Position numbers and translations under genes: made by a program. Below, piece after piece: positions 3,526-57,576 of a stretch of DNA of 64,000 nt; positions within the stretch are counted from its first letter, which is position 1, and each line of letters starts with the position of its first letter. The stretch comes from Chitinophagaceae bacterium 26-R-25 (lineage in GTDB: Bacteria > Bacteroidota > Bacteroidia > Chitinophagales > Chitinophagaceae): the NCBI GenBank assembly GCA_029906195.1, contig JARWSJ010000002.1:1-64000 (forward strand), given 5' to 3'. Under the pieces are notes generated by a model. It ran no database searches. It worked only from the letters and a program-made list of their open reading frames with translations, and was not told the origin of the DNA.

Positions 3526-4323
3526 ATGAGGAAAATGCTTTTCGCATATTGTATACTGTTAGTATCGGCATTTGGAACAACGAACTCTAACAGTGTGGCA
3601 CATCTTATCAGTAAGAAGCAGTATGAGAAAATGTTTGCTCATCACAACGCTATATTTACCTATGAGGCTTTTACTGGGGCGTGTAAGGCTTTTCCGGCTT
3701 TTTGTGGTGAAGGTGATGATAAAACACGAAAGCGGGAGTTGGCTGCTTTTTTTGCAAATGCATCTCAGGAAACAACAGGCGGTTGGAAAGATGCGCCGGG
3801 TGGCAGAGAGGTTTGGGGCCTGGTGTATACAGAAGAGCAATCCTGCAAAGATGGGCATTGCACACAATACAATATTTCGGGTACCAGTGATTATAAACCT
3901 GCGCCAGGCAAGTCATATCATGGTAGAGGGCCTTTGCAAATATCTTACACTTACAACTACGGACTCGCGGGTGATGAGCTTCAACTTCCATTGCTTGATA
4001 AGCCTGAATTAGTGAGCACCAACGGTGTTATCTCATTTAAAACTGCGATTTGGTTTTGGATGAAAGCCCAGGGTGCTAAACCTTCATGTCATGATGTAAT
4101 GACAGGCAAATGGCAACCCAATGACAAAGACAAGGAGCAACACCGCGAACCTGGTTTTGGCATGACGATAAATATTATTAATGGCGGCGTTGAATGCAGT
4201 TCCGCTGATCCTGCGATTGTAGATAATAAACAGAACAGGATTGACTGTTATAAATTCTACGCAAAAGTTTTAGGCACCACGGTGGATGAGCATTGTGATT
4301 GTAAAGGGATGGGAACTTACTAG
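3526..4323 (+). CDS. Secreted GH19 chitinase/lysozyme-type glycosidase
   Basis: A 265-residue protein with an N-terminal signal peptide (about 1-20) and a glycoside hydrolase family 19 domain. The hallmark segment ASQETTGGW carries the expected general acid at Glu82, and a second acidic pair (YTEEQ, about 101-103) sits where the GH19 catalytic base is found. The chitinase-type motif SYHGRGPLQISYTYNYG follows. GH19 enzymes hydrolyse beta-1,4-GlcNAc chains in chitin, and some cleave peptidoglycan; the sequence alone does not settle the substrate. Several Cys residues suggest disulfides and export. The stop codon TAG is the first triplet of a downstream heptad repeat array. Confidence 0.88.
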   Translation: MRKMLFAYCILLVSAFGTTNSNSVAHLISKKQYEKMFAHHNAIFTYEAFTGACKAFPAFCGEGDDKTRKRELAAFFANASQETTGGWKDAPGGREVWGLVYTEEQSCKDGHCTQYNISGTSDYKPAPGKSYHGRGPLQISYTYNYGLAGDELQLPLLDKPELVSTNGVISFKTAIWFWMKAQGAKPSCHDVMTGKWQPNDKDKEQHREPGFGMTINIINGGVECSSADPAIVDNKQNRIDCYKFYAKVLGTTVDEHCDCKGMGTY

Positions 4324-4367
4324 GAGTTAGGAATTAGGAATTAGGAGTTAGGTGTTAGGTGTTGAGG
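4321..4367 (+). repeat. Heptad array (TTAGGAR-type), single-sided
   Basis: Six to seven tandem 7-nt words (TTAGGAG, TTAGGAA, TTAGGAA, TTAGGAG, TTAGGTG, TTAGGTG) begin at the GH19 stop codon. No facing complementary array is visible here, unlike most arrays in this window. A terminator follows. Confidence 0.85.
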
Positions 4368-4407
4368 AATGCGTTCAATCTTAGATAAAGGTTGAACGCA
4401 TTTTTAT
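4368..4407 (+). terminator. Terminator after GH19 gene
   Basis: Stem ATGCGTTCAA near 4369-4378 pairs with TTGAACGCAT at 4392-4401 and is followed by TTTTATTTG. Position and T tract fit an intrinsic terminator for anmK-GH19. Confidence 0.75.
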
Positions 4408-4416
4408 TTGAGTCAT

Positions 4417-4782
4417 TTATTGAGGTATATTGAAAAAGTTCCAGCCTTCTATAATTTGGCCGTCTTTGATTCGGGCCATGCACATTCCACCAAAATTTAC
4501 GGGTTCATTATTTGATATTTTAACGGCATCTACCACGCATCTTGCTACCTCGAGATCATCCTGGACAACGGTTTCTTCAATGCGAATTTTAATGTCGGTG
4601 AAGATTGTTCTAAAGTGCTGCGAAAACGCCCTGAAACGCGCCGGCCCTCCGAGATGGCCGTATGCTTCAAGCCCGTGACTTATTGCGTTTTTGTGCATCA
4701 GTTCATCAACTGCCTTGTCATCGGCGTTATTCCAGACATTGTGAAACCAACGATGGATCACTGTGGTTTGATCTACTGGCAT
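4417..4782 (-). CDS. SnoaL-like / NTF2-fold protein
   Basis: A small protein of about 121 residues from the chosen ATG at 4782. It resembles the SnoaL-like polyketide-cyclase/ester-cyclase group of the NTF2 fold: a start like VIHRWFHNVWN, a central GHLGGPARFRAF segment, and a C-terminal stretch of beta strands ending GQIIEGWNFFN. An upstream in-frame start would add 26 hydrophobic residues with no family counterpart, so I prefer the internal ATG. It is last in a minus-strand cluster after the LytTR regulator (84-nt gap). Substrate unknown; many such proteins are uncharacterised. Confidence 0.65.
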   Translation of the reverse strand: MPVDQTTVIHRWFHNVWNNADDKAVDELMHKNAISHGLEAYGHLGGPARFRAFSQHFRTIFTDIKIRIEETVVQDDLEVARCVVDAVKISNNEPVNFGGMCMARIKDGQIIEGWNFFNIPQ

Positions 4783-4866
4783 ATTAATAGCGTTTAGTGG
4801 TGAAAAAAGAGATTTGAAACTGAAGACACTAAAATTAAACAACCTCTTTTGTTTCCACAATAGCTA

Positions 4867-5616
4867 TTAAAGACCTAACACAGATTTCAATTTAGGGTAG
4901 CCTGTTTTACTCACGGATACTTTTGAACCATCGCGTAAAGTGGCTATGTAGCTGTCTTTTTCATACACATCGAGTTTGCTTATTTCGTTGATGTTTACGA
5001 TAAAAGAGCGATGAACCCGCACAAACACTTGCGGATTGAGGGTCTTTTCAAAAAATGACATCGTTTTGTTTTTTAGAAAAGCGCCTTCTTTGGTAACAAT
5101 TTTTACATAGTCATCTGCGGCTTCGAGATAATTGATTGTATCAACAGGAATGATTTTGATCTTACCGCTGTTTTTCACCACCACTCTGTTGTTTTGAGAA
5201 GGTGATTCGGCGGCACTTTCGAGCAATGCCTGTGTATTTGCTGCGCTGCTTTTTTTTGCACCGTTGTTATTGCTGGATAAGAATTTTTGAACGGCTTTAT
5301 CAAAGCGTTCTTTGCTGTAAGGCTTCAATAAGTAATCTATTGCATGGCTTTCAAATGCTTTGATCGCATATTCATCAAAGGCTGTGGTAAAGATTACTGC
5401 GGGAGGTTCTTCTATTAATTCGAGCATTTCAAAGCCATTTATCTTTGGCATTTGGATGTCAAGAAAAATCAGGTCAGGCTTGTGTTGCATGATAGCTTTC
5501 ACGCCTTCAAAACCATCGTTGCATTCCTGTACGATTTCTATATCAGGATATGTTTGAAGGTATTCTTTAACTATCATAATAGCCAATGGTTCGTCGTCTA
5601 TAATAACTGCTTTCAT
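4867..5616 (-). CDS. LytTR-family response regulator
   Basis: A 249-residue two-component response regulator. The N-terminal receiver domain begins MKAVIIDDEPLA with the acidic pair, has the phospho-acceptor Asp in LIFLDIQMPK, and ends near residue 120. A linker rich in Ser/Asn/Ala leads to a C-terminal LytTR DNA-binding domain (YLEAADDYVKIVTKEG to about 245). I chose the ATG at 5616, because the six extra codons upstream depend on a TTG. The cognate LytS-type kinase gene ends 34 nt upstream, so the two form an operon. LytTR regulators bind direct repeats upstream of targets, often envelope genes; its own targets cannot be read here. Confidence 0.92.
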   Translation of the reverse strand: MKAVIIDDEPLAIMIVKEYLQTYPDIEIVQECNDGFEGVKAIMQHKPDLIFLDIQMPKINGFEMLELIEEPPAVIFTTAFDEYAIKAFESHAIDYLLKPYSKERFDKAVQKFLSSNNNGAKKSSAANTQALLESAAESPSQNNRVVVKNSGKIKIIPVDTINYLEAADDYVKIVTKEGAFLKNKTMSFFEKTLNPQVFVRVHRSFIVNINEISKLDVYEKDSYIATLRDGSKVSVSKTGYPKLKSVLGL

Positions 5617-5650
5617 CTGTTCATATTTTGTCAACTCAAAAATTCTTAGC

Positions 5651-6721: not shown

Positions 6722-6733
6722 GGTGTTATTTGT

Positions 6734-7093
6734 TTAAACTGCTGGAAGTGCATGTGTTTCAAGAGTGCCTGTTAATTTGCCTGCTTTATCTTTTATCAGT
6801 TTCAGGTAGCCTGATTCATCACTGTATTCCTGTATCTGGGAAAATATTTCTGCTCCATCTGCGAGTTCTACAATTGGTAGCAGGCTGCATACATCAATGA
6901 ATTTCCATTGTACAATTTGCTGTTCATTGTTAAAAAAAGTTTCTGATTCTGTATTCCCGATATTCCTTGCTTTATCAAGTGCCTGCGCTGGATTGGCGGC
7001 TTTGATCAAACGAAGTTGTTCATCAAATTGAGGAGTATGATTGCCATCTCCACATATAATCTGGTACACCAGTTTAGTAAGATACCAATTCAT
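6734..7093 (-). CDS. DUF4288 domain protein
   Basis: A 119-residue protein matching the DUF4288 family by its start WYLTKLVYQIICGDGNHTPQ followed by FDEQLRLI. No signal peptide or membrane helix is visible, so it is probably cytoplasmic. The family has no established function. It lies 12 nt upstream of the histidine kinase gene and downstream of the LiaF-like gene, so it is likely part of the same envelope-response operon. The ATG at 7093 is followed upstream by a heptad repeat array. Confidence 0.75.
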   Translation of the reverse strand: MNWYLTKLVYQIICGDGNHTPQFDEQLRLIKAANPAQALDKARNIGNTESETFFNNEQQIVQWKFIDVCSLLPIVELADGAEIFSQIQEYSDESGYLKLIKDKAGKLTGTLETHALPAV

Positions 7094-7095
7094 AT

Positions 7096-7246
7096 AATTG
7101 AAAATTGAAAGTTGAAAGTTGAAAATGGATGAGCTAATTGAAAGTTGTTTTTTGAAATGATAGTGTTCAAATGATTTTTGGCGTAACTAAATCATACCCA
7201 TCATTTTCAATTTTCAACTTTCCCCGCCTGATGTCAGTCGGGCGGG
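7096..7246. repeat. Inverted heptad array (TTGAAAG) with REP-like hairpin
   Basis: Left array of TTGAAAA/TTGAAAG words at about 7096-7127 faces its reverse complement at 7202-7222 (CATTTTCAATTTTCAACTTT). Immediately after comes an 8-bp GC-rich stem (CCCGCCTG at 7223-7230 with CGGGCGGG at 7239-7246). It fills the gap between the LiaF-like and DUF4288 genes. Confidence 0.8.
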
Positions 7247-7259
7247 AATTCTCAATTGT

Positions 7260-8608: not shown

Positions 8609-8736
8609 GTAGAGACGCATGAAAATGCGTCTCTTGCTGCGGCACGTTGTTATTTTAGGAGACGCATTTTCATGCGTCTCTACGGGGTGGCACGTTGTTA
8701 TTTCAGGAGACGCATTTTCATGCGTCTCTACGGGGT
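8609..8736. repeat. Cluster of three GTAG-type REP palindromes
   Basis: Plus-oriented copy at 8609-8634 (GTAG, then AGAGACGCAT, loop GAAA, ATGCGTCTCT) faces two minus-oriented copies at 8658-8683 and 8706-8731. The last two lie in a 48-bp direct duplication (8641-8688 and 8689-8736, one mismatch). The GTAG foot of the last copy supplies the ade stop codon. Confidence 0.85.
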
Positions 8737-10359
8737 GAAAAATGTAAAACTGTCGCCATCAAACAAACCTTTATCGCTGAGCTTGGCATGGGGAATTACC
8801 AGCAGCGCCATAAAAGACAGCGTCATAAAAGGAGCCGAAAGGGTGGAGCCAAGTGATTTGGCCGCTTTGTCGATGGCAGCGTATCGTTGTGCGATAGCGT
8901 AGCCATCTTCATTACTCATTAAACCAGCCACAGGAAGCCCGAGAACCATTTCAACGTCTTTGCCGACGCAGCTTACCCCGCCTTCTTTTTCTATTACAAG
9001 ATTTACAGCTTTGCACAGGCTTTCCTCATCCACGCCGACGGCAACGATATTGTGGCTGTCGTGTGCCACCGATGAGGCGATGGCTCCTTGCTTCAAACCA
9101 AAGTTTTTAATAAAGGCCTTCGCGATGGGAGCGGAGTTGTAGCGATTGACCACGACGATTTTTAATACGTCTGTTTGCGTATTGCTAACAATATTGCCAT
9201 TTTCGACGGTTGGCTGCAATAACAATTTATTAGTAATTAACTGGCCGTCTAGTGCCTCCATTACAACAATCTCCTTTTCTCCGTTCCACTTGGTTGAAAA
9301 GTCTTCCACTTTTTTTGTAGAACAATGAAAATTATTAATGATGGAAGCCGTTTTCGGAACAATCAGCGATTTGCCGTTTTCGGCCACCAGCTGTCCGTCG
9401 ATAAAAGTTTTAAGCACCTTAAAGTTGTCAAGATCTTCAACGGCGATGAAATCGGCTTTGTCTCCCTTGCGCAAAAAGCCGACATCCAGTTTGTAGTGGT
9501 CGATCGGATTGATACAGGCAGCCTGCAGGACTTTGAAAACATCAATTCCTTTTTTCACTGCTCTTGCGCAAAGTTCATTGATGTGTCCTTCAGCAAGACT
9601 GTCGGGGTGTTTGTCATCGCTGCAAAACATAATGTTGGCGCTATGCTCATGCAGTAAGTCGACCAATGCTTCAAAGTTTTTGGCGGCACTTCCTTCCCTG
9701 ATCAGGATTTTCATTCCATACATCAACTTATCAAGGGCTTCTTCAATAGTAAAACATTCGTGGTCGGTGCTTATGCCTGCGTCAATGTATTGTTTTGCCA
9801 GATTGCCTCTTAGCCCCGGTGCGTGGCCATCAACGGTCTTGCCTAAGCGCTTTGCGGCGGCAATTTTGGCCATCACATCTTTATCTTGATGGAGAACACC
9901 TGGAAAATTCATCATTTCCGTAAGGTATCTGATGTCATCGCTCGCAAGTAGTTCTTCAATATTGGCAACTGTAACTTCTGCGCCGGCAGTTTCGAAAATG
10001 GTGGCGGGCACGCAACTCGGCGCGCCAAAGTTGAACTTAAAAGGAACCGTTTTCCCGTTTTCGATCATGTATCGAACGCCCTCTACGCCGCAAACATTAG
10101 CGATTTCGTGCGGGTCGCTTATGGTAGAAACTGTGCCATGCACAACCGCCAGCTTTGCAAATTCGGAAGGCACTAGCATTGAGCTTTCCACATGCACGTG
10201 AGAGTCGATAAAACCAGGTAAGATGTAAAGCAAACCTTTCTCTGGTTCATTATGAATTATTTCTATTTCATATATCAGACCATCTTGTACAATTACTACT
10301 CCCTTATAAATCTTTCGATTTAAAATATCAACAACATTTCCAGTTATGGTAAAATTCAT
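8728..10359 (-). CDS. ade: Adenine deaminase
   Basis: A 543-residue amidohydrolase-superfamily enzyme converting adenine to hypoxanthine and ammonia in purine salvage. Metal-binding motifs typical of Ade are visible: DSHVHVESS (52-60), SDPHE (about 82-86), the DGHAPGL segment (about 177-183) and CSDDKHP (about 246-252). The C-terminal half has the family's conserved NRY and HDSHN segments. Length is close to the usual 550-600. The final codons (Thr-Pro-stop) come from a GTAG-type REP palindrome at 8706-8731, so the native C-terminus has probably been replaced or trimmed by the repeat. It is not clearly in an operon. Confidence 0.93.
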
Positions 10360-14789: not shown

Positions 14790-15776
14790 ATGAAAAAAAA
14801 ATATAAATGGGGCATCTTAGGCGCCGGAAAAATTGCTGAAAAATTTGCAACGGCCATTGAATATACGGAGGGTGCAGAGCTATATGCAATTGCTTCACGC
14901 GATAAACGGAAGGGGCAGGATTTTGCTGTCAGGCATGGCGTATCTGTTGTTTTTAACGATTACGAAAGCCTTGCAATGGACGCAAATGTTGATGTTATTT
15001 ATGTCGCCACGCCACATGCTTTTCACTGTGAACATTCCATTTTGTGTTTGCAAAATAACAAAGCTGTTGTATGCGAAAAGCCCATGGCAATAAGCTATTC
15101 ACAAGTGGTGAAAATGATAGGGGCGGCCCGCGAGCACAATGTGTTTTTTATGGAAGGCATGTGGAGCAGATTTATGCCTTCGATTCACAAAGCTCTTGAG
15201 TTGATTAAGCAGGACGTTATTGGAGAAGTGCAGTACGCAAGGGCCGATTTTGGATTCAATGCTCCGGCAGATGAAAACAACCGCTTGTATAACTTGAAGC
15301 TTGGTGGAGGATCGCTATTGGACGTAGGCATTTATCCCTTGTTCTTGGCAACTTTGTTATTTGGAGAACCTGGTGCCATACACACTGCCTCGAAGCTAAC
15401 CAAAACAGGCGCTGACGAATACTGTAATGCAATTTTGAAATATAGCGGCGACAGGTCGGCTTCTATTTTTTCTTCCATCACCATGAACTCAGAAAAGAAT
15501 GCTGAGATAATAGGAACCAAAGGAAAAATCATTTTACAATCGCCATGGTACAAAGCAACGGACATGCTCGTTGTACTTAACGACGGCGACAAGCAATCAT
15601 TTTCCATGCCACACGGAAGCAATGGTTTTGAACATGAAATAATACACGTAATGGATTGCCTTGATAAGGGTTACAAAGAATCTCCGCTCATGCCACATGA
15701 CTTTACGTTAACCATGAGCCGCACGATGGATATTATTTTGCATCAGATGGGAGTGGTTTATGAAATTGAAAGTTGA
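14790..15776 (+). CDS. Gfo/Idh/MocA-family oxidoreductase
   Basis: A 328-residue NAD(P)-dependent dehydrogenase-like protein. The N-terminal Rossmann fold has GILGAGKIAEKF (8-19), and the family's EKP motif is at about 97-101 (CEKPMA). The catalytic domain follows with GGGSLLDVGIYPL near 173-185, where the Asp and the Lys of EKP are the usual catalytic residues. It resembles the dihydrodiol-dehydrogenase/xylose-dehydrogenase branch; the sugar substrate is not known. The last four codons and the TGA stop are part of a TTGAAAG heptad array, so the C-terminus (EIES) has been set by the repeat. It stands alone between the barrel gene and the convergent GH18-CE4-GT2 gene. Confidence 0.9.
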   Translation: MKKKYKWGILGAGKIAEKFATAIEYTEGAELYAIASRDKRKGQDFAVRHGVSVVFNDYESLAMDANVDVIYVATPHAFHCEHSILCLQNNKAVVCEKPMAISYSQVVKMIGAAREHNVFFMEGMWSRFMPSIHKALELIKQDVIGEVQYARADFGFNAPADENNRLYNLKLGGGSLLDVGIYPLFLATLLFGEPGAIHTASKLTKTGADEYCNAILKYSGDRSASIFSSITMNSEKNAEIIGTKGKIILQSPWYKATDMLVVLNDGDKQSFSMPHGSNGFEHEIIHVMDCLDKGYKESPLMPHDFTLTMSRTMDIILHQMGVVYEIES

Positions 15777-15946
15777 AAGTTGAAAGTTGAAAATGCTTTG
15801 GTTGCAAAAAGCCTTTTTATTTTTTAGCAGTGTGTATATTCATGTTTGTAATGGTTGAATCAATATAAAAGCCGCGTTACTCACGCGGCTTCGTTTTTTT
15901 AAAAAGGGCGAATGCGATTCGTCCCTACCATTTTCAATTTTCAATT
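15764..15946. repeat. Inverted heptad array (TTGAAAG) around a terminator
   Basis: Left array 15764-15794 (four TTGAAAG/A words, overlapping the oxidoreductase stop) faces CATTTTCAATTTTCAATT at 15929-15946. Between them lie a terminator (15869-15900) and a palindrome GGGCGAAT/ATTCGTCCC at 15905-15927 whose minus-strand foot reads GTAG. Confidence 0.8.
15869..15900 (+). terminator. Terminator after Gfo/Idh/MocA gene
   Basis: Perfect 9-bp stem AAGCCGCGT (15869-15877) and ACGCGGCTT (15883-15891) followed by CGTTTTTTT: a textbook intrinsic terminator between convergent genes. Confidence 0.88.
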
Positions 15947-19504: not shown

Positions 19505-19678
19505 ATAATAACTGAATAACTGAGTAACTAAATAAACGAATGGTTGAATGTCGTATTTACCGATTGATCTTCAATCGTTCGTGATTTTTAATGATCGAAT
19601 AACTGAGTGATAGCACACAGTGGGCTGCATCACCTCCAAACATTCAGTTATTCAGTTAATCAGTTATTCAGTCATTCG
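19505..19678. repeat. Inverted octad array (AACTGAAT)
   Basis: Left array of AACTGAAT/AACTGAGT words at 19505-19535, a further piece at 19597-19612, and the complementary array CATTCAGTTATTCAGTTAAT... at 19641-19678. The right arm ends one base before the dnaX stop codon. Confidence 0.82.
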
Positions 19679-21540: not shown

Positions 21541-21736
21541 CGAGAGAGAACGCTGATTTTTAAGATTGTCATGATTTTCATGATCTTTTTAAAAGATCCA
21601 GTTTCATCATAACACTTTTCTAATCTCGGTTCTTTCAAATTATTTGGAAAAAGAACAAAAATTTTGAGGCCATCAAGATTTGATCAGACAAAAAAATCAT
21701 CATTAATCATGACAATCTTGAAAATCTGCGTTCCTC
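21541..21736. repeat. Dispersed inverted repeat (GCAGATTTTCATGATTGTCATGA family), copy 1
   Basis: Left arm 21541-21583 (GAGAACGCTGATTTTTAAGA, then TTGTCATGATT) faces right arm 21703-21736 (AATCATGACAATCTTGAAAA, then TCTGCGTTC). The same family occurs at 32171-32255 with perfect arms. It fills the dnaX upstream gap. Confidence 0.75.
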
Positions 21737-23009: not shown

Positions 23010-23096
23010 TAAAAGTTTTAACTTTTAAGTTGTAAGTTTTAAATTATGAAAGAAGCTAAAAACCTATAACTTACAAGTCAAAACTTATTACTTAAT
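23010..23096. repeat. Inverted heptad array (AGTTTTA-type)
   Basis: Words AGTTTTA, ACTTTTA, AGTTGTA, AGTTTTA at about 23010-23044 face CTTACAAGTCAAAACTTATT-type sequence at 23064-23096, between the divergent acyltransferase-like gene and the ytxH operon. Confidence 0.65.
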
Positions 23097-24093: not shown

Positions 24094-24180
24094 AGTTGAA
24101 AGTTGAAAGTTGAAAGTTGAAAATGAAAGGCAGTTTCGCCTTAGTACTCATTTTCAACTTTCAACTTTCAATTTTCAATT
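24094..24180. repeat. Inverted heptad array (TTGAAAG), convergent gene junction
   Basis: Left array 24094-24125 (AGTTGAAAGTTGAAAGTTGA, then AAGTTGAAAATGA) and right array 24149-24180 (complement) fill the whole gap between two convergent genes; the right arm overlaps the stop codon of the L,D-transpeptidase. The loop is only about 23 nt. Confidence 0.9.
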
Positions 24181-26318: not shown

Positions 26319-27893
<1,575 letters not shown>

Positions 27894-28058
27894 TTTGAAA
27901 ATGTGGTGATTTGAAAATTTGAAAATGGCGAAAGCCATTTCTTATGTTCAGATCATAATCTATAAAATCAGTTCTAAGAAATAATTTGAAGATTAATTTG
28001 GAAATGCTTTGTGCAAATGAGGCATTTTCAAATTTTCAAATTTTCAAATTTTCAAATT
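27894..28058. repeat. Inverted octad array (TTTGAAAA) between atpD and atpC
   Basis: Left words at 27894-27927 (TTTGAAAATG, ATTTGAAAATTTGAAAATGG) begin right after the atpD stop; right array at 28022-28058 repeats TTTTCAAA four to five times and ends 6 nt before the atpC ATG. It could form a long hairpin inside the operon. Confidence 0.88.
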
Positions 28059-28389: not shown

Positions 28390-28655
28390 CAATAACTGAA
28401 TAACTGAATGACTGAATAACTGAAAGGCCGAAAGTCGTAGTGCAAAATCGAAAATCAGCTCTGCAAGGCTTGTAGCCTTGCAGTTTCATTTTGTTGCCTC
28501 TGGCAGCATGAGTTGAATATTGCCTGAGGCAATAGAATAAAACCGCGAAGCTATAAGCTTCGCAGAGCACAGACTGAATAACTGAAAGGCCGAAAGTCGT
28601 AGTGCAAAATCGAAAATCAACTACTCAGTTATTCAGTTAATCAGTTATTCAGTTA
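28390..28655. repeat. Inverted octad array (AACTGAAT) split by an inserted REP pair
   Basis: Left array 28390-28424 and complementary right array 28622-28655 flank a 48-bp perfect direct repeat (28410-28457 and 28572-28619) with a 50-nt-unit REP pair between the copies. Removing one repeat copy and the insert restores a hairpin like the one at 46552-46652. It fills the 321-nt gap between convergent atpC and the reductase gene. Confidence 0.85.
28458..28568. repeat. Paired 50-nt REP element, copy 2
   Basis: Units at 28458-28507 (GCTCTGCAAGGCTTGTAGCC...) and, inverted, 28519-28568 (minus strand GCTCTGCGAAGCTTATAGCT...). Both match the two units at 14642-14747 in length (50 nt) and hairpin plan, with stems that vary while keeping pairing. 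Confidence 0.87.
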
Positions 28656-29696
28656 TTAAAATTTCAAGATCACATCTCCACCCACCGGATACCCCACACA
28701 CGTCAACACCCGGCCTTTCGCTATTTCATCGTCCATTAAAACTTCGTTGTAACTCATCCATACTTTGCCGCTAACACAGGTGGCAGAACAGGTGCCGCAG
28801 CGCCCGGCTTCGCAGCTATAAGGCAGTGTGATGTCGGCTTTTTTGGCGGCTTGCAATATGGTTTGCGGGTACTGCGAAACAAGATCATACACATTGCCGT
28901 TCGCCTCAATGGTGATCATGTGAGGAAGCGTGTCCGGTGGCAGCTCCTTTGTTTCCACCTTAAATGTTGTAAAGTTCTCCTTGTGAATATTTGGCGCGGG
29001 AACACCTTCTGCCAATAGCTGAATAGTGGCCATACGCATGTAATCGAAAGGCCCGCACAGAAAGAATAATGTTTCGTTGTACGGGCAAGTGCTATATTCC
29101 TTTAGCAGAACATTCAACAGCCATTTGCTTAACCTCGCTCTTCCAAGATTTTGTGCATCGCTAAAAAGGAACTCAATGGTTAACTTATCCGGAAATTTCG
29201 CTGCAAGCTCTTGTAAGGCTTTATAGAAAATGGTATCGGCAACACTGCGGTTACTGTATATCAAAACAATTTTCAAATCCGCATTACTGTGCAGCAGTGT
29301 TTTTATTAAAGGTAAAACGGGAGTAATGCCACTACCTGCAGCAAAGAAAAATATTTGCCTGAAAGAAGGAATGTTATCTGGCAATGTGAAAAAACCAGTC
29401 GACCCAATGGTTACCAATTCATCTCCTACAGCTGTGTTGTCAATCAGTTTGCGCGAGTATTCCCCATTATCCAGTCGTTTCACAGTAATCGCTAAAGGCT
29501 CGTTTAGAAGGGGTGTTGAGGAAATAGAAAAACTACGTCGTTCCTCCATGTCATGCTTTGAAAAAACAAAGGTCAAAAACTGGCCTGCTTTGTAGTTGAT
29601 CTGTTTTTCAGCCAAAGGAGCAAGCACGAATGTTTTGCTTTGGCTCGTCTCTTCGATAATATCCGTGATTTTCAAATGGATATAAGGTGTTGTCAT
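28656..29696 (-). CDS. FAD/2Fe-2S ferredoxin reductase (PaaE-like)
   Basis: A 346-residue electron-transfer flavoprotein. An FAD-binding beta-barrel (RRSFSISSTPL near 53-63) and an NAD(P)-binding domain (FFAAGSGITPVLPLIKTLL near 117-135) are followed by a C-terminal plant-type ferredoxin domain with PYSCEAGRCGTCSATCVSGK, i.e. Cys-x4-Cys-x2-Cys plus a later Cys (about 335) for the 2Fe-2S cluster. This order (reductase then ferredoxin) is that of PaaE/HmpB-like oxygenase reductases. No oxygenase gene is adjacent, so the partner is unknown. ATG at 29696 is chosen over an upstream TTG. Confidence 0.9.
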   Translation of the reverse strand: MTTPYIHLKITDIIEETSQSKTFVLAPLAEKQINYKAGQFLTFVFSKHDMEERRSFSISSTPLLNEPLAITVKRLDNGEYSRKLIDNTAVGDELVTIGSTGFFTLPDNIPSFRQIFFFAAGSGITPVLPLIKTLLHSNADLKIVLIYSNRSVADTIFYKALQELAAKFPDKLTIEFLFSDAQNLGRARLSKWLLNVLLKEYSTCPYNETLFFLCGPFDYMRMATIQLLAEGVPAPNIHKENFTTFKVETKELPPDTLPHMITIEANGNVYDLVSQYPQTILQAAKKADITLPYSCEAGRCGTCSATCVSGKVWMSYNEVLMDDEIAKGRVLTCVGYPVGGDVILKF

Positions 29697-29706
29697 TAGC
29701 AAATAG

Positions 29707-29853
29707 AATTAGGAATTAAAAATTAAGAATTAAGAATTCATTAGGTTGATGTTTTGTTACCAAATGCCATCGCTTCGAAGGTGCTGGGATTTATTAATTT
29801 TCAGCGTGTTAAACGGAAACAATTCATAATTTTTAATTCCTAATTCTTAATTG
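29707..29853. repeat. Inverted heptad array (AATTAAG/AATTAGG)
   Basis: Left array 29707-29739 (AATTAGGAATTAAAAATTAA, then GAATTAAGAATTC) faces 29821-29853 (complement) in the divergent gap between the reductase and the AmgK-RapZ gene. Confidence 0.75.
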
Positions 29854-29914: not shown

Positions 29915-31360
29915 ATGCAAAAAGTAATTGAAGAAATAAAGGCTCTAGCGGAGACAGCTTTTGGTGTCTCCGGGGTAGAAGTGGAGGTCCTGCCGCAATC
30001 AGGATCAGACCGCAGATATTTTCGCGTGTTCGTGAACGGCAAATCTTACATTGCCTGTTACGGCCCCAATGTGCAGGAAAATAAGACGTTCATCTCGTTC
30101 ACCAATCAGTTCAGGAAGCACAGCGTTCCTGTGCCTGAAATCCATGCTATCAATGATCGTTCGGATATTTACATACTGGAAGATTTTGGAACTGTTTCTT
30201 TGCTGGACGAATTGGAAAAGAACAAATACAATTCTTATGTGTACGATCTTTTCAAAAAGAGTTTGCGCTCGCTGGCTCGGCTGCAGGTCGTTGCAGGCGA
30301 AGGTATAGATTACAACATGTGTCTTACGGCAAAAGAATTTGGCAAGCAGGCAATACTGTCCGATCTCCTGTATTTCAAATACTATTTCCTGGATACGCTG
30401 AAATATCCATACGATAAGCAAGCGCTGTTAAATGATTTCGAGTCGTTGACAGAATATCTTACCCGGCAGATCGACCAGCATTTTATGTTCCGTGATTTTC
30501 AAAGCAGGAACATCATGATAAAAGATGGCGAAGTTTATTTTATAGATTACCAGGGCGGCATGAAAGGCGCTTTGCAGTACGATGTTGCGTCGTTGTTGTG
30601 GCAGGCAAAAGCAGAGCTTCCTGAAGATTGGAAAAACGAGCTGCTCGATTATTATATTGATGAAGTGAACCAGCTGTTGACGGAATCCATCAATAAGGAA
30701 AAGTTCGTTTACCAGTACAACGGTTATGTGTTGATACGTTTGTTGCAAGTACTCGGAGCTTATGGTTTCAGAGGATTGTTTGAACGTAAAGCACATTTCC
30801 TTTCCAGCATTCCACAGGCGATCAATAACCTCAAGTGGTTCTTGGACAACAAGCAAATGGGAATCGTTTTGCCGGAGTTGGAGAAATGCTTGCGCCATTG
30901 TGTAAGCGATGAAGTATTGAAGCGTTTTGAACCCATTCGTGCATCAGAAGATGCTGCGCTTGTTGTTAAAATAAGCAGCTTCTCCTTTAAGCAAGGCATT
31001 CCGGGCGATGAGACTGAAAACGGTGGTGGCTTTGTGTTTGATTGTCGCGGAATTTTGAATCCTGGTCGTTTCCAGGAGTACAAAACGCTTACCGGACGGG
31101 ATAAACCGGTAAAGGATTTTCTTGAACAGCAAACAATGATGCCCGAATTTTTGAACAGTGTTTATAACATCGTGGACATCAGCGTAACCGATTATTTAAA
31201 GCGTGATTTTGAGAGCCTGATGGTTAGTTTTGGCTGTACAGGCGGCCAGCACAGAAGCGTGTACGCTGCGGACGCCTTGGCCCGCCATTTAAAAAATAAA
31301 TTCAACGTTAAAGTAGAAGTGGTCCATCACGTGCAGGACGCAAAGAATTGGATCAATTAA
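29915..31360 (+). CDS. AmgK-like sugar kinase fused to RapZ C-terminal domain
   Basis: A 481-residue cytoplasmic fusion. Residues 1-330 are an aminoglycoside-phosphotransferase-type kinase; the catalytic loop reads FRDFQSRNIMI (Asp and Asn kept) and the metal motif is YFIDYQGG. This resembles AmgK, the N-acetylmuramate/N-acetylglucosamine anomeric kinase. Residues about 350-481 match the C-terminal domain of RapZ: SFSFKQGIP, FDCRGILNP, LTGRDKPV and the signature GCTGGQHRSVYAADAL near 438-453. In E. coli this RapZ part binds glucosamine-6-phosphate and contacts RNA and RNase E. murU follows 90 nt downstream, which supports the AmgK assignment. The role of the RapZ domain here is inferred. Confidence 0.85.
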   Translation: MQKVIEEIKALAETAFGVSGVEVEVLPQSGSDRRYFRVFVNGKSYIACYGPNVQENKTFISFTNQFRKHSVPVPEIHAINDRSDIYILEDFGTVSLLDELEKNKYNSYVYDLFKKSLRSLARLQVVAGEGIDYNMCLTAKEFGKQAILSDLLYFKYYFLDTLKYPYDKQALLNDFESLTEYLTRQIDQHFMFRDFQSRNIMIKDGEVYFIDYQGGMKGALQYDVASLLWQAKAELPEDWKNELLDYYIDEVNQLLTESINKEKFVYQYNGYVLIRLLQVLGAYGFRGLFERKAHFLSSIPQAINNLKWFLDNKQMGIVLPELEKCLRHCVSDEVLKRFEPIRASEDAALVVKISSFSFKQGIPGDETENGGGFVFDCRGILNPGRFQEYKTLTGRDKPVKDFLEQQTMMPEFLNSVYNIVDISVTDYLKRDFESLMVSFGCTGGQHRSVYAADALARHLKNKFNVKVEVVHHVQDAKNWIN

Positions 31361-31450
31361 GTAGAAAGTGGAGAGTTGAGAATGGAGAGTTATTAACGCC
31401 CATTCTCAACTCACACTCTCAATTCTCCACTCTCAACTCTCAACTCTCTC
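31361..31450. repeat. Inverted heptad array (GAGAGTT), abuts murU start
   Basis: Left array 31361-31391 starts just after the AmgK-RapZ stop; right array 31401-31450 (CTCTCAA, CTCTCAA words) ends at the base before the murU ATG. No promoter or ribosome-binding consensus is visible in the remaining DNA. Confidence 0.88.
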
Positions 31451-32170: not shown

Positions 32171-32255
32171 GAACGCAGATTTTCATGATTGTCATGATTT
32201 GTAATGATTTAAATAAAAATCTTGATTATCATGACAATCATGAAAATCTGCGTTC
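32171..32255. repeat. Dispersed inverted repeat (GAACGCAGATTTTCATGATT family), copy 2
   Basis: Perfect 27-bp arms, 32171-32197 and 32229-32255, around a 31-nt AT-rich loop, between the convergent murU and LOG-family genes. Related to the copy at 21541-21736. Confidence 0.88.
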
Positions 32256-33010: not shown

Positions 33011-33059
33011 TGCTGTTGATCTTTAGTGAAACAATAGAGAGGCAATTCAAATGTAATTA

Positions 33060-33145
33060 AAAAGTAAAAAGTAAAAATTCAAAAGTAAAAAGGGTACGAA
33101 AGCTTGCACAGTTTTGGCTTATTTTTGACTTTTGACTTTTTAATT
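33060..33145. repeat. Inverted heptad array (GTAAAAA/GTCAAAA)
   Basis: Left array 33060-33091 and right array 33122-33145 (TTTTTGACTTTTGACTTTTT) in the divergent LOG/xth gap, where promoters for both genes would be expected. Confidence 0.75.
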
Positions 33146-33156
33146 AAACTTTCTCT

Positions 33157-33926: not shown

Positions 33927-34031
33927 CAAGTCAAAAGTTAAAAGTCAAAATTCAAAAGGCTTCGGTTCAATCATACATCATGAGCATAAACCATTTTTTA
34001 CTTTTGAATTTTTACTTTTGATTTTTTTAAT
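33927..34031. repeat. Inverted heptad array (GTCAAAA/GTTAAAA)
   Basis: Left words 33927-33957 (AAGTCAAAAGTTAAAAGTCA, then AAATTCAAAAG) face 33996-34028 (TTACTTTTGAATTTTTACTT, then TTGATTTTTTTAA) between xth and the DUF4286 gene. Confidence 0.75.
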
Positions 34032-35433: not shown

Positions 35434-35436
35434 TAA

Positions 35437-35528
35437 GTAAAAATTTAAAATTAAAAATTCAAAAAGTGACTTCAATTGGACGGCTTCCCATTTTTGAATT
35501 TTGAATTTTGATTTTTGACTTTTTAATT
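35437..35528. repeat. Inverted heptad array (AAAATTC/AAAATTA)
   Basis: Left array 35437-35467 and right array 35490-35528 (TTTTTGAATTTTGAATTTTG, then ATTTTTGAC) lie between THX and the BI-1 gene; the right arm overlaps the BI-1 stop codon. Confidence 0.75.
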
Positions 35529-36328: not shown

Positions 36329-36402
36329 TTGTTAGGTGATGGTTGTTAGTTGTTAGGAATCGACACATAAAAAGACTAACAACTTTTAACTAACAACTAA
36401 CA
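36329..36402. repeat. Inverted heptad array (GTTGTTA)
   Basis: Words GTTGTTA, GTGATGG, TTGTTAG, TTGTTAG at 36329-36354 face AACTTTTAACTAACAACTAA, then CAACT at 36375-36402. A second, different array follows at once. Confidence 0.75.
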
Positions 36403-36417
36403 ACTGCTGCTGCAAAT

Positions 36418-36494
36418 GGCTGAATAACTGAGTAACTGGAAACCCGATGCTCCTAAAACTTTCAGTTATTCAGTTACTCAGTTATTCAATCATT
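36418..36494. repeat. Inverted octad array (AACTGAGT)
   Basis: Left GCTGAATAACTGAGTAACTG (36419-36438) and right CAGTTATTCAGTTACTCAGTTATTCA (36463-36489) with a loop of about 25 nt. Two unrelated arrays stand side by side in this one gap. Confidence 0.82.
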
Positions 36495-39716: not shown

Positions 39717-39886
39717 TCACGCAAAGGCGCAAAGGAGCAAGGGCGCAGAGGGAAACAAGAGTATAAGTCATCTTTAAACTTTGGTTGAGCTTTAGTTGCG
39801 CCGCGAAGAAGTAATGCTAACTTCCGTAAAATAATTTTTCAAAGAAACGTTCCTTCGCGCCCTTGCTCCTTTGCGCCTTTGCGTGA
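39717..39886. repeat. 30-bp perfect inverted repeat (heptad-like GCAAAGG words)
   Basis: TCACGCAAAGGCGCAAAGGA, then GCAAGGGCGC at 39717-39746, is perfectly complementary to 39857-39886. The words GCAAAGG/GAGCAAG repeat with a 7-8 nt period. It lies between convergent hydrolase and radical SAM genes with a 110-nt loop. Confidence 0.85.
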
Positions 39887-43705: not shown

Positions 43706-43790
43706 CAATTAGGAATTAGGAATTAGGAGTTAGGAGTTAAGAATTGGCTGCGAGAGTGGTGAATTAATAATTAATAATTAAGAATTAATA
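43706..43790 (+). repeat. Heptad arrays (AATTAGG then AATTAAT)
   Basis: AATTAGG, AATTAGG, AGTTAGG, AGTTAAG words at 43706-43743, then AATTAATAATTAATAATTAA at 43763-43790. They begin just after the korB stop codon. The first has no facing arm. Confidence 0.75.
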
Positions 43791-43831: not shown

Positions 43832-43922
43832 GTTGTTAGTTGATAGTTGTTGGTTGTTAGCCTTTCATTTTGAATAGTCCTCATTGAGGGCTAACAACGA
43901 ACAACTATCAACTAACAACTTA
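43832..43922. repeat. Inverted heptad array (GTTGTTA/GTTGATA)
   Basis: Left array 43832-43860 (GTTGTTAGTTGATAGTTGTT, then GGTTGTTAG) and right array 43891-43920 (its complement) with a loop of about 30 nt containing a small palindrome. Confidence 0.85.
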
Positions 43923-46551: not shown

Positions 46552-46652
46552 TAACTGAATAACTGATTAACTGAATAACTGAGTGGTTGAAATTCAATTA
46601 GTGTCTATTACGTTCAACCTCTCAGTTATTCAGTTAATCAGTTATTCAGTTA
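46552..46652. repeat. Inverted octad array (AACTGAAT), perfect 32-bp arms
   Basis: TAACTGAATAACTGATTAAC, then TGAATAACTGAG (46552-46583) is perfectly complementary over 32 bp to 46621-46652. A further GGTTGAA/TTCAACC pair extends the stem to about 40 bp. Left arm abuts the stop of the upstream gene; the right arm contains the stop TAA of the convergent flippase. Confidence 0.95.
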
Positions 46653-48185: not shown

Positions 48186-48345
48186 GGAAATTAGGAATTA
48201 GAAGCTAGGAATTAGGAACTAGAGGAAGCTGAGCGGGCAGGTTATATAAATGAGTGAAACCGAAGGACAGTTGGGCACCTTCAACTATTTTAGAATCTAA
48301 CCAGTTTGCATGTCCTAATTTCTAATTCCTAGATCCTAATTTCTT
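48186..48345. repeat. Inverted heptad array (AATTAGG/AACTAGG)
   Basis: Left words 48186-48222 (AAATTAGGAATTAGAAGCTA, then GGAATTAGG) face 48313-48345 (CCTAATTTCTAATTCCTAGA, then TCCTAATTTC) in the divergent gap between the flippase and the dnaJ-like gene. Confidence 0.78.
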
Positions 48346-49301: not shown

Positions 49302-49647
49302 AATTTATGACTACCTCGACGAAGAATTGCACACGGAAGAATTGATCCCTGAGAAAAGCCCCGAGCTTTCATACTCGATACACGAAGTAATGGATCAATT
49401 GGGATACAAGGAAGAAGCGTCTTATTCCGAACCGCTCGAAAGGACGCTGAAAGCCTGCATGGCTTTGGGCATTCCCATAAAGGAAAATTTCAGGAAAGTA
49501 TATTGCTTTGCAAATGGCAAAATGGAGCTCGACCTGCGTTTGTCTGCCATTGCCTGCTATTTGTTTATGATCAATTGCAATCCAAACAATCCGCTTGTGG
49601 CCAAAGCCCAGTTGCTTTTCATGCTAAAGACCAATTTTAGAATTTGA
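49294..49647 (+). CDS. DinD-like small protein coupled to DnaJ
   Basis: A 117-residue protein. It aligns along its length with the DinD/BRO-type 'DNA-damage-inducible D' proteins: [20 protein letters not shown], then [20 protein letters not shown] near 80-99 and [12 protein letters not shown], compare the DinD pattern LSRYACYLI..NGDP..A.AQ.YFA. DinD in E. coli is SOS-induced and inhibits RecA-DNA filament pairing. Here the gene occupies the place where cbpM follows cbpA, overlapping it by 8 nt. A CbpM-like role is the alternative; sequence points to DinD. No signal peptide. Confidence 0.65.
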
Positions 49648-49649
49648 AA

Positions 49650-49792
49650 ATTTGAGAATTTGAAAATTTGAAAATGCTTTCTGTGCAATTTTCTCGTTTG
49701 CAACTTAACTCTTCAAATATCAGAGAGTAGCTAATTAGCAAGAGAACACACCTAAAGAATTTTCAAATTTTCAAATTCCCAAATTTTCAAAT
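49650..49792. repeat. Inverted octad array (TTTGAAAA)
   Basis: Left array 49643-49674 (TTGAAAATTTGAGAATTTGA, then AAATTTGAAAATG) faces 49757-49792 (AATTTTCAAATTTTCAAATT, then CCCAAATTTTCAAATA). The 289-nt gap also holds a candidate promoter, no gene. Confidence 0.82.
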
Positions 49793-54350: not shown

Positions 54351-54377
54351 GTAGAGACAAGGCATTGCCTTGTCTGT
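54351..54377 (+). repeat. GTAG-type REP (AGACAAGGCA stem)
   Basis: GTAG followed by the palindrome AGACAAGGCATTGCCTTGTC and T. Single copy in the 270-nt gap between the asnS and PAP2 genes, about 185 nt before the PAP2 start. Confidence 0.85.
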
Positions 54378-54384
54378 ATCGCCA

Positions 54385-54413
54385 ATAAAAAAGCCCCCGC
54401 AATGGCGGGGGCT
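54385..54413 (-). terminator. Terminator after asnS
   Basis: Perfect 9-bp stem AGCCCCCGC (54392-54400), loop AATG, GCGGGGGCT (54405-54413), with T6 on the minus strand side. It lies 25 nt after the asnS stop. Confidence 0.92.
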
Positions 54414-54437
54414 GTATGCAAAATGAAATATTTATTA

Positions 54438-55877
54438 TTAAAATTCTGCGGTTTTCGGGGTTCTTGGAAATGCGATTACGTCGCGGATATTTGTCATACC
54501 TGTAACGAACAGCACCATGCGCTCAAAACCTAAACCGAATCCTGCATGCGGCACGGTTCCAAAGCGACGCGTATCAAGGTACCACCAGAGTTCTTCGGCA
54601 GGAACATGCATTTCTTTCATTCTTGCTTCGAGGTTTTCCAACCTTTCTTCTCTTTGCGAACCGCCTACGATCTCGCCGATGCCGGGAGCCAGAATATCCA
54701 TCGCCGCTACAGTTTTACCATCTTCATTCAGGCGCATGTAAAATGCTTTGATGTCTTTAGGATAGTTTGTAACGATCACCGGTTTCTTGAAATGTTTTTC
54801 TACCAGGTAACGCTCATGCTCACTCTGCATATCAATGCCCCATTTTACCTCGTACTGGAATTTTTTCTTTTTATATGCAGGAGATTGCAACAAAATATCG
54901 ATCGCTTCAGTATAAGTAATGCGTTCGAAGTTGTTGTTCAAGACAAATTCCAGTTTTTCGATCAATCCCATTTCGCTGCGTTCAGCCTGGGGCTTTTGTT
55001 TTTCTTCTTCAACAAGACGCTGTGCAAGAAACTCAAGGTCCTCGCGGTTGTTGTCCATCGCATGCTGAATGATGTATTTGATAAATTCTTCAGCAAGGTT
55101 CATGTTGTCTTCCAGGTCACTGAATGCCATTTCCGGCTCGATCATCCAAAATTCTGCAAGGTGGCGGGCCGTATTTGAATTTTCCGCACGAAACGTTGGC
55201 CCAAACGTATAAATTTCGCCGAAGGCAGTAGCGCCCAGTTCTCCTTCCAATTGTCCACTCACCGTAAGGTTGGTTGACTTTCCGAAGAAATCTTCTTTAA
55301 AGTTCACAGAACCATCTTCGTTACGTGGCGTGCCGTCAAAAGGCAAAGAAGTTACACGGAACATCTCACCCGCACCTTCTGCATCACTTGCTGTGATGAT
55401 GGGCGTATGCAAATACACAAAGCCTTTTTCGTTGAAAAATTTATGGATAGCGAAAGCCAGCGAGTGACGCACACGGAAAACCGAACCAAAAGTGTTGGTA
55501 CGGAAACGCATGTGTGCAATTTCACGCAGGTATTCCAGGCTTGGACGGTTCTTTAGCTGAAGAGGATATTTTTCCGCATCGCTGTCGCCCAATATTTCCA
55601 GTGTTTTCGCTTTTACTTCAATTTTCTGGCCCTTGCCCATAGACGGAACTACTTCTCCCGTTACTTTAACGGACGCGCTGGTAGTAAGTCTTTTCAGTAA
55701 AGCATCATCAAATTGACCCAATTCTAAAACGATCTGTATATTATTATTAGTGCTGCCGTCATTAACCGCTAAAAACTGGTTGTTACGGAATGTGCGTACC
55801 CAACCCATTACCGTTACTTCATGGCCCGTTTGCTCCGAGGCCAGCAATTGCTTCACTTTAATTCTTTTGTTGAACAT
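54438..55877 (-). CDS. asnS: Asparaginyl-tRNA synthetase
   Basis: A 479-residue class II aminoacyl-tRNA synthetase. The N-terminal OB-fold anticodon domain ([20 protein letters not shown], about 20-110) precedes the catalytic core with motif 2 ([20 protein letters not shown]) and motif 3 ([10 protein letters not shown]). The start at 55877 ([12 protein letters not shown]) matches the family; an upstream frame to 56027 would translate a heptad repeat array. A -7 box lies just upstream. Confidence 0.97.
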
Positions 55878-55899
55878 ATACAGATTTTTAAAAGGAGAG

Positions 55900-55907
55900 C
55901 AAATATA
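55900..55907 (-). promoter_or_regulatory. asnS -7 box
   Basis: TATATTTG on the minus strand (55907-55900), an exact -7 match, 23 nt upstream of the asnS ATG at 55877. The -33 element (TTTC) is imperfect. Confidence 0.5.
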
Positions 55908-55919
55908 AACAATGTCGGG

Positions 55920-56165
55920 TGAAACGTGAATGGTGAATGGTGAATGGTGAATGGCACGCCGGTTACCGCTCAAATAACCTCCGAAGCCGTATTCACGGTT
56001 CACGGTTCTCGATTCACGTTTCACCATTCACGCCCTGCTGATTCTGGTTTGTCCCGTATTTCTGCCAGTTGGGATCGGGCTGTACCGGAAACGTCCAGCA
56101 TTGAAGGCAACTTAGGCATAGAGCCGCTTATTCGCGTTTCACCATTCAATATTCACGATTTACCT
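55920..56165. repeat. Inverted heptad array (GTGAATG)
   Basis: Left array 55920-55954 (GTGAATGGTGAATGGTGAAT, then GGTGAATGG) faces ATTCACGGTTCACGGTTCTC, then GATTCACGTTTCACCATTCAC at 55990-56031, and a second complementary piece at 56137-56162. Together with the asnS promoter it fills the 355-nt gap; no gene seen. Confidence 0.8.
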
Positions 56166-56232
56166 CCCGCCACAAATTGTTTAATAAATAAATGACTATT
56201 AGTAGTTTTAGCGGCTTAAAACTTGACTAAAC

Positions 56233-57546
56233 ATGAATAGAAAGAAATTGATGCTTATTGCCACGGCAGCACTCATGAGTGCCGGTGCGATGGCTCAACA
56301 GGTGAAATTTGTTGAATACGATCTCGACAACGGATTACACGTCGTTCTGCACCAGGATAAAAAAGCTCCGGTGGTGGCAGTTACCGTTATGTATCACGTT
56401 GGATCAAAAAATGAACAAGTGGGCCGCACAGGATTTGCCCATTTCTTTGAACACTTGTTGTTTGAAGGTTCTGACAACATCAAACGTGGCGAATTCATGA
56501 AGATCGTTTCCAGCAATGGGGGCCAGAACAACGCCAATACAACGCAGGACAGAACTTTTTACTACGAAGTATTTCCTTCCAACCAACTGGAGCTTGGCCT
56601 GTGGCTGGAAAGCGAAAGAATGCTTCACCCAGTGATAAATGAAGTAGGCGTGAAAACGCAGAATGAAGTGGTGAAAGAAGAAAAAAGAATGCGTATAGAT
56701 AACCAGCCTTATGCAAGATTTAATGAAGAGATCTTCAAACGCTTGTTCACAAATCATCCTTACCACTGGCAAACAATCGGTTCTATGGAAGACCTGGATG
56801 CTGCGAAACTGGAAGAGTTCCAGGCTTTCTTCAAAAAATTCTATGTTCCCAACAACGCAGTGCTGACAATAGCAGGAGATATCGATGTTGACAAAACAAA
56901 ACAATTGGTGGCGTCTTATTTTGCCGACGTACCTAAAGGTGCACCGGTAACTCAACCGAACATCAAAGAAGCACAAATCACCAAAGAGATGGTTGATACG
57001 GCTTATGATGCAAACATTCAAATTCCTGCTGTATTTGCGGCTTACAGAACGCCGGGCAGTACGACAAGAGACGCGCAGGTGCTTGGATTAATAAGCAAAG
57101 TGCTATCTGGTGGGGCAAGCTCACGTTTGTATAAAAAAATGGTGGACGATAAGAAGAATGCATTGCAGGTTGCAGCATTCAATTATTCTTTGGAAGATTA
57201 TGGTGCGTACATTACACTTGCATTGCCAAACGGCAACGCGAAGCTGGAAGATCTTTTGAAGGATATGGACGATGAAGTTGCAAAATTGCAAACAGATCTG
57301 ATCAGCGAATCTGACTATCAAAAATTACAGAACCAGTTTGAGAACGACTATGTGAGCGGCAATACTAAAATGGTAGGTGTGGCTGAAAATCTTGCTGATG
57401 GATACACTTTCAATAAAAATACAAACGAAGTAAACGAGGAGTTAAAAAAAGTTCGTTCGATTACCCGTGAAGAAATTCGCGATGTAGCGAAGAAATACCT
57501 GAACAAGAACCAGCGCCTTGTACTTTATTATTTACCCAAGAAATAG
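56233..57546 (+). CDS. M16 zinc metallopeptidase (active form)
   Basis: A 437-residue exported peptidase. A signal peptide (about 1-21, LMLIATAALMSAGAMA) is followed by an M16 pitrilysin-type domain with the inverted zinc motif HFFEHLLFEGS (HxxEH) near 74-84 and a distal Glu in NEVVKEEKRMR. The catalytic zinc site is complete. The gene downstream encodes an M16 protein without this motif, an arrangement seen in two-subunit M16B peptidases, where both halves are needed. 114-nt gap to it. Confidence 0.93.
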   Translation: MNRKKLMLIATAALMSAGAMAQQVKFVEYDLDNGLHVVLHQDKKAPVVAVTVMYHVGSKNEQVGRTGFAHFFEHLLFEGSDNIKRGEFMKIVSSNGGQNNANTTQDRTFYYEVFPSNQLELGLWLESERMLHPVINEVGVKTQNEVVKEEKRMRIDNQPYARFNEEIFKRLFTNHPYHWQTIGSMEDLDAAKLEEFQAFFKKFYVPNNAVLTIAGDIDVDKTKQLVASYFADVPKGAPVTQPNIKEAQITKEMVDTAYDANIQIPAVFAAYRTPGSTTRDAQVLGLISKVLSGGASSRLYKKMVDDKKNALQVAAFNYSLEDYGAYITLALPNGNAKLEDLLKDMDDEVAKLQTDLISESDYQKLQNQFENDYVSGNTKMVGVAENLADGYTFNKNTNEVNEELKKVRSITREEIRDVAKKYLNKNQRLVLYYLPKK

Positions 57547-57576
57547 AAGAAATTAGGAATTAGGAATTAGGAATTA
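57546..57576 (+). repeat. Heptad array (AATTAGG), single-sided
   Basis: AATTAGG, AATTAGG, AATTAGG, AATTAAG words directly after the first M16 stop codon; no facing arm. Confidence 0.85.

Follow-up and report, generated by a model that had tools for sequence, protein, structure and literature searches.

Intergenic inverted arrays of 7- to 9-nt words in a Pinibacter genome

Inverted word arrays in the window and in the genome

We analyzed a 64-kb stretch of DNA (positions 1 to 64,000 of contig JARWSJ010000002.1, hereafter the window) from Chitinophagaceae bacterium 26-R-25, a soil bacterium of the genus Pinibacter (Chitinophagaceae, Bacteroidota) with a genome of 6.5 Mb. A 1152-aa protein encoded in the window shares 97% identity with P. 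aurantiacus and 96% with P. soli. The subject of the analysis is a set of intergenic elements in which a tandem array of a short word is followed, after a loop, by the reverse complement of the same word. The window was compared with two syntenic Pinibacter genomes, G001 and G002 (DNA identity of 79-92% per block), and was combined with twelve 20-kb samples of its own genome into a set of 304 kb. Genes were called and elements detected with simple custom scripts.

Elements of period 7 with the word TTGAAAG lie at 7107..7222 (loop of 74 nt), where the left arm at 7096-7127 matches exactly a 32-nt arm repeated in the genome; at 15780..15944 (loop of 133 nt), where the left array begins at 15766 and a terminator-like hairpin with a T tract can be seen by eye in the loop; and at 24096..24178, which fills a convergent gap and whose counterpart has an inverted loop in G002 and the word TTGAGAG in G001. 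The other period-7 elements called by the detector are AAGTTTT at 23013..23086; AAGAATT at 29705..29847, a gap that by eye holds a ACGCAGATG-type inverted element in both G001 and G002; GAGAGTT at 31363..31449, which fills a tandem gap from stop to start codon; AAAAAGT at 33054..33146; AAAAGTT at 33933..34026, with an inverted loop in G001; AAAAATT at 35435..35521; GTTGTTA at 36342..36404 and at 43832..43919, the latter absent from G002 by eye; and GTGAATG at 55918..56025. Period 8 is represented by AACTGAAT at 19507..19676, 28391..28657 and 46552..46652 (with an inverted loop in G001), by TTTGAAAA at 27892..28058, immediately 3' of atpD, and at 49642..49792 (loop inverted in G002), by AACTGAGT at 36421..36488, which adjoins the GTTGTTA element at 36342..36404, and by GCAAAGGC at 39717..39886. 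Two elements have period 9, ATGATTGTC at 21558..21723, where the same gap carries TTTGAAAA in G001 and G002, and a ACGCAGATTTTCATGATT-type element at 32172..32254. By eye, the loop at 28391-28657 contains a palindromic insertion bordered, as in the orthologous gap of G001, by a duplicated stretch of about 40 nt of the loop, one copy on either side; the loop of G002 is uninterrupted.

The sequence-only reading of this DNA had named 15 gaps, and the detector called 14 of them. The fifteenth (48186-48345) holds an AATTAGG pair at 48187..48341 that falls under the detector threshold in the window, is visible by eye and was called in the G001 ortholog. The same reading had held that the two arms always match, which is too strong: no partner was called for the AATTAGG-type array at 4321..4363, the AATTAGG arrays at 43707..43739 and 57551..57576 (the latter gap shows an AAAAGTA pair in G002 by eye) and the AATTAAT array at 43762..43788.

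In the 304 kb we counted 109 arrays of period 7, 35 of period 8 and 15 of period 9, and 2-6 arrays for each other period from 5 to 13. A complementary stretch lies at most 300 nt away for 122 of the 159 period-7, -8 and -9 arrays. After merging, 64 paired elements with periods 7-9 were obtained, 21 of them in the window, whereas each of three dinucleotide shuffles yielded 4 arrays (periods 7, 8 and 9 in total) and 0 pairs. The inverted word arrays are real and far above chance. Their density is one paired element per 4.75 kb, which extrapolates to about 1,370 elements in the whole genome if the 304-kb sample is typical. Most elements are 90-150 bp long, and the loops in the window measure 18-201 nt.

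Repeat families and arm structure

About ten words of 7, 8 or 9 nt coexist in this genome. It had been suggested that each locus has its own word, but the words recur. The 32-nt TTGAAAG arm, AATTGAAAATTGAAAGTTGAAARTTGAAAATG (one position being A or G), is found 190 times in the genome (90 and 100 copies on the two strands), and the 36-nt TTTGAAAA arm (two free positions) is found 33 times (15 and 18 by strand); the reversed patterns of both arms have 0 occurrences in the genome. When the AACTGAAT element at 46552-46652 was used as a BLAST query and 40 of 269 candidates were scored, at least 87 matches were obtained on the two strands. Alignment of 39 places (35 from the BLAST matches and 4 others) defines a repeat of about 100 bp with at least 39 copies, whose conservation drops sharply beyond the element; 16 of the 39 are in convergent, 15 in tandem and 2 in divergent gaps, and 6 are not assignable. 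This family has the plan of miniature inverted-repeat transposable elements (MITEs), namely terminal inverted repeats and dispersed copies of one length: 35 BLAST spans, picked from matches covering most of the query, measure 85-114 bp (median 99), the length comparison being applied to the AACTGAAT family only. Per-family arm alignments likewise have sharp limits.

The motif CTTTnTGTG, chosen after the loops had been viewed, stands just inside the arms in 5 of 95 elements of the own genome (shuffle mean of 0.12), or in 6 if the last 8 nt of the arm are counted, and these 6 carry three different words (TTTGAAAA, TTGAAAG and AAGAATT types) of both periods. Because arms are repeated and this motif is shared, the arms act as repeated modules, at times with the same core beside different words. 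A shorter inner motif, GCTTT, was discarded, as it is not enriched (9 occurrences; shuffle mean of 4.9, maximum of 12).

Local copying among adjacent gaps was also discarded, neighbours sharing a word in 7 of 66, 4 of 32 and 5 of 30 cases (shuffle means of 8.7, 3.7 and 3.9). In one part of the genome, two AACTGAAT elements about 0.7 kb apart (C2:108765-108868 and C2:109589-109686) have almost identical loops, which suggests exchange between these neighbours. In sample L056, a period-9 element (ACGCAGAT) is nested within TTGAAAG-type arms at 2138-2372 and again at 15744-15913. Candidates for long autonomous versions consisted of 12 inverted array pairs with the same word 300-4000 nt apart, most of which link neighbouring short elements by eye; no transposase was sought within them.

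The families share one arm structure, and the counts that follow pool the window species, G001 and G002, which are partly orthologous and thus not independent. Among 328 arms of periods 7 and 8, whole units number four in 165, three in 77, two in 58, one in 7 and at least five in 21. The peak at four units can be observed in every period-7 or -8 group with at least 10 elements, and the six-element TTGAGAG group peaks at five; in 54 arms from other members of the order, the peak is less clear (18 at four units, 16 at three). The sequence-only reading had suggested a test of whether the lengths of the two arms change together. When they are measured independently, in 169 of 176 elements, their correlation is weak (rho 0.19, p 0.016).

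A second rule is strand polarity. The 5' arm has more G than C in 154 of the 176 elements (16 ties, 6 with more C), and in the control, 106 intergenic inverted repeats without periodicity from the same DNA, G exceeds C in 45, C exceeds G in 42 and the two are equal in 19. The bias extends to 31 elements of periods 7-9 from 69 loci outside Pinibacter (28 to 3), and in 65 intergenic arrays classed as unpaired, some of which are outer arms of nested pairs, the G-richer strand points outward from the nearest gene edge in 52, inward in 5 and neither way in 8. In 109 elements the 5' arm contains no G run longer than 1; the longest run is 2 in 61 elements and 3 in 6. Runs of at least three G, as expected of a quadruplex, are thus not a general feature, and GG words may still form two-G quadruplexes. 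Stop codons in all three frames are present in 39 of 64 5' arms vs 14 of 64 3' arms. A stop-codon cassette was nevertheless rejected in favour of the G-over-C rule, because some words, such as GCAAAGGC and ACGGTGT, carry no stops by eye.

These arm data bear on an origin in place, in which slippage would grow a short array at a gene edge and fold-back copying would then add the second arm. The existence of the 65 arrays classed as unpaired speaks for such an origin, subject to the nesting mentioned above, as does the report that heptanucleotides outnumber all other long repeats in the majority of genomes (PMC4679880). On the other side, just 21 of the 328 arms have more than four units, arms are repeated at up to 190 places and family boundaries are sharp, so that we regard this origin as improbable. 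The earlier proposal of slippage copied by hairpin templating therefore fares differently in its two halves. Slippage as the origin is opposed by the scarcity of long arms and by the repetition of whole arms in the two families tested, whereas templating as a process of upkeep agrees with the paired arm changes and the inversion of short loops described below.

Placement and change between species

With the three partly orthologous species combined, 37 of 76 convergent gaps of at least 60 nt contain an element, as do 69 of 191 tandem and 15 of 88 divergent gaps of this size. Contrary to what had been stated, elements do not occur in the three arrangements alike. The median element starts 2 nt after the stop codon in convergent gaps (n = 74) and 8 nt after it in tandem gaps (n = 69), where the median end is 36 nt before the next start. 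This placement beside stop codons, together with the scarcity between divergent genes, would also be expected if the elements were functional 3'-end structures under selection (bidirectional terminators, RNase III sites or mRNA stabilisers) whose words drift while the arms keep pairing. The terminators themselves argue against such a role. Canonical terminators are equally common in convergent gaps with (22 of 45) and without elements (26 of 53), and the figures for tandem gaps are 15 of 92 and 36 of 166. The elements neither replace nor require terminators, and in convergent gaps, where the rates are equal, they do not stand in for them. The statement that T tracts are lacking holds for the arms and fails for the loops, as in 13 of the 45 element-bearing convergent gaps (13 of the 22 with a terminator) a canonical terminator with its T tract sits inside the loop.

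Folded as single-stranded DNA, ten elements of the window form stable hairpins, with z values of -3.4 to -14.8 relative to their own shuffles; for one of the ten, 1 of 200 shuffles was equally stable. Such stability is compatible with functional 3'-end structures. Against this, the elements differ from the compact GC-rich hairpin with a T tract that defines an intrinsic terminator, the arms being mostly A+T-rich and the loops long, reaching 200 nt or more. A search of the window with Rfam 15 at gathering score gave 0 matches.

The comparison between species was restricted beforehand to elements in gaps of at most 700 nt and away from sequence ends; 38 further cases, over all species pairs, dropped out for want of usable anchors or synteny, and 2 because they held several elements. 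A called pair is also present in the orthologous gap for 27 of 32 element-bearing gaps with usable synteny between the window species and G001, and for 26 of 40 between it and G002, and several of the gaps scored as having none do show a pair by eye. In 83 one-to-one ortholog pairs the word is the same in 35, one letter off in 29, two letters off in 7, three letters off in 6 and of another period in 6. Whole words can thus be replaced at one place, as at 15780, where TTGAAAG stands in the window and a AACTGAAT element in the gap of G001, and, by eye, at 31363, where GAGAGTT corresponds to a GTTGTTA-like word in G002.

Loops in the same 83 pairs are collinear in 35, inverted in 13 and unclear in 35. 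Inversion depends on loop length: where the loop does not exceed 60 nt, 9 pairs are inverted and 5 collinear, vs 4 and 30 for longer loops (Fisher p 5e-4, with some loci counted in more than one species pair and the pairs therefore not all independent). The arms also change in concert. Among the ortholog pairs, 48 have homologous loops and arms of the same period; their gap-free arm columns total 1115, of which 28 changed in both arms, where 7.2 were expected, and base pairing was kept in 20 of the 28. Preserved pairing is what selection on a 3'-end structure would leave, but one arm sequence recurring at many loci, as in the two families tested, goes beyond what pairing demands. We consider functional 3'-end structures, taken as a whole, rather unlikely.

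The reading that we favour, and hold to be probably correct, is that the elements are dispersed non-coding repeats similar to repetitive extragenic palindromic (REP) sequences and MITEs, copied through the genome by some mechanism, and that template switching accounts for the similarity of the arms and the flipping of loops. The families have a common plan and differ by word: the 5' arm consists of about four words of 7 or 8 nt and has more G than C, and it is followed by a loop and the complementary arm. The repetition of arms suggests that copies spread; they lie mainly in gene-free gaps beside stops and away from divergent promoters, presumably where they are best tolerated. The inverted arms may allow the template to be switched across the hairpin during replication, a process published as homogenising the arms of inverted repeats and inverting their spacers (PMC8604942). 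Here it would keep the arms alike, flip short loops and pass a changed word from one arm to the other.

Several observations weigh against this reading. Comparison of orthologous gaps revealed no clean empty site, no target duplication and no mobilising gene, and element-free orthologous gaps show, by eye, replacement instead of clean insertion. Many-copy homologous loops are found in the AACTGAAT family only: the TTTGAAAA loop at 49676-49757 matches nowhere else in the genome, and when the 64 own-genome elements were compared with one another by their loops, just 8 hit rows resulted. Terminators within some loops fit a compact moving unit poorly. In 61 unpaired arrays the peak at four units is weaker (20 with three units, 17 with four, 12 with two and 12 with at least five), and a purine excess of the 5' arm, unlike the excess of G over C, is also seen in the non-periodic controls (69 to 22, with 15 ties).

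If the copies were mobilised, the genome's own REP-associated tyrosine transposases (RAYTs) would be candidates, the elements then being REPINs. REPINs are likewise hairpin-forming inverted doublets of a repeated extragenic sequence (PMC3116915), a description that fits the present elements, and an intact PF01797 (RAYT-like) gene has one period-9 element at 77 nt from its stop and another at the far end of the same 3.2-kb locus. However, there are only two PF01797 loci, one with internal stops, for about ten word families, and 7- and 8-nt arms are absent within about 1.5 kb of either, which also counts against the reading favoured above. Whereas REPs adjoin RAYT genes (PMC3116915), the Pinibacter arms are word arrays, and their 7- and 8-nt families have no visible RAYT link. 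REPIN membership is not supported, and mobilisation by these RAYTs seems very improbable. The two PF01797 loci (L064 and L065) lie, by eye, among GC-rich palindromes such as AGCCCCAGCGGGGC, apparently a separate repeat system of this genome.

Known repeats, relatives and other features

The sequence-only reading knew of no described element with this plan; one has in fact been published. Rehm et al. (2015) reported 186 and 183 GGGAATC arrays, mostly of four units, in two Xanthomonas genomes, with 70 and 75 inverted pairs; most of the arrays are no more than 50 bp away from a gene, either downstream of its stop on the sense strand or upstream of its start on the antisense strand, and 8 and 7% are between divergent ORFs (PMC4692102). 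Intergenic dispersed tandem words, mostly four units, inverted pairs and rules of strand and position are therefore common to both systems. In the account of these authors, the repeats have no general link to mobile elements and are understood as quadruplex biology, one G-rich quadruplex-forming word having been studied per genome, which is GGGAATC in Xanthomonas; in Nostoc/Anabaena it is GGGGA(C/T)T, of which inverted pairs are few (PMC4692102). Pinibacter differs in having about ten words of 7, 8 or 9 nt, G runs of at most 2 in 170 of 176 elements and about one element per 5 kb. Its elements follow Xanthomonas-type rules mostly without G tracts, and what is new is a many-word variant with low G runs.

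As the rules hold for words mostly without G runs, the cause of the four-unit and polarity rules, which the published account attributes to quadruplexes, may lie elsewhere. We raise, tentatively, a wider possibility: a class of dispersed hairpin repeats across phyla, with rules independent of the word (arms of about four 7-8-nt words, G over C in the outward direction, a place beside gene ends), arms copied by some machinery and families diversified by concerted rewriting of both arms under a constant plan, for which the quadruplex reading of the Xanthomonas repeats would be incidental. With its turnover of matched-arm words and its loop inversions (13 of 83 ortholog pairs, 35 being unclear), the genus lends itself to the study of how hairpins drive template switching in bacteria under natural conditions.

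Other repeats resemble these elements in part, and heptameric tandem arrays are also known from Cyanobacteria as STRR repeats. TAACTGA direct repeats, described in Beggiatoaceae, Cyanobacteria and five Bacteroidetes (MacGregor 2015), have almost the word of the AACTGAAT family and are likewise intergenic and dispersed, but their 7-nt words are repeated in direct orientation and, in the main genome, mostly immediately precede start codons, a single case being inverted (PMC4679880); the AACTGAAT-type elements have 8-nt words in inverted pairs, mostly near stops. In Geobacter metallireducens, four tandem heptanucleotides (GGGACCG) are found at 49 sites, and a second class, depicted as folding back on itself, comprises 16 sequences, 15 of which contain five heptanucleotides; the words are different and these elements also occur within genes (PMC2700814). 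Small hairpin-associated inversions in plastids, as here, flip loops between short inverted repeats among relatives, but they concern a dozen scattered sites and no repeat family (PMC5492656). Searching the open-access literature, with subscription papers outside the search, we found no description of such elements in Chitinophagaceae.

Among relatives, whose compared sets may overlap, 25 other genomes of the family were sampled through 27 stretches, none longer than 20 kb, and 8 of these contain 11 paired elements in all (periods 6-12). Other families of the order contributed 13 stretches, of which 2 contain 3 such elements. Named Niastella loci contain pairs with other words, e.g. of AAGTAGG and GGGCAGA type. 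The tandem TTTGAAAA word is present in 17 of 248 genomes of the order, including its own, with 0 for the reversed control. Pinibacter is unusually rich in a pattern that occurs thinly among its relatives. Loss of the hairpin nuclease SbcCD was considered as a cause and rejected as not specific, since no SbcD exceeds the cut-off in any of the 3 Pinibacter genomes, but none does in 28 of 36 other relatives either.

Three further features of the window are unrelated to the arrays. A 48-nt unit is directly repeated in about two copies at 8625-8737 (90-97% matches). The gene at 29915-31360 encodes a 481-aa protein that resembles AmgK over residues 6-307 and RapZ over residues 333-468, in each case under the curated cut-off, and 60008-61672 encodes a phosphoethanolamine transferase to which the CptA models are nearest, again under curated cut-offs.

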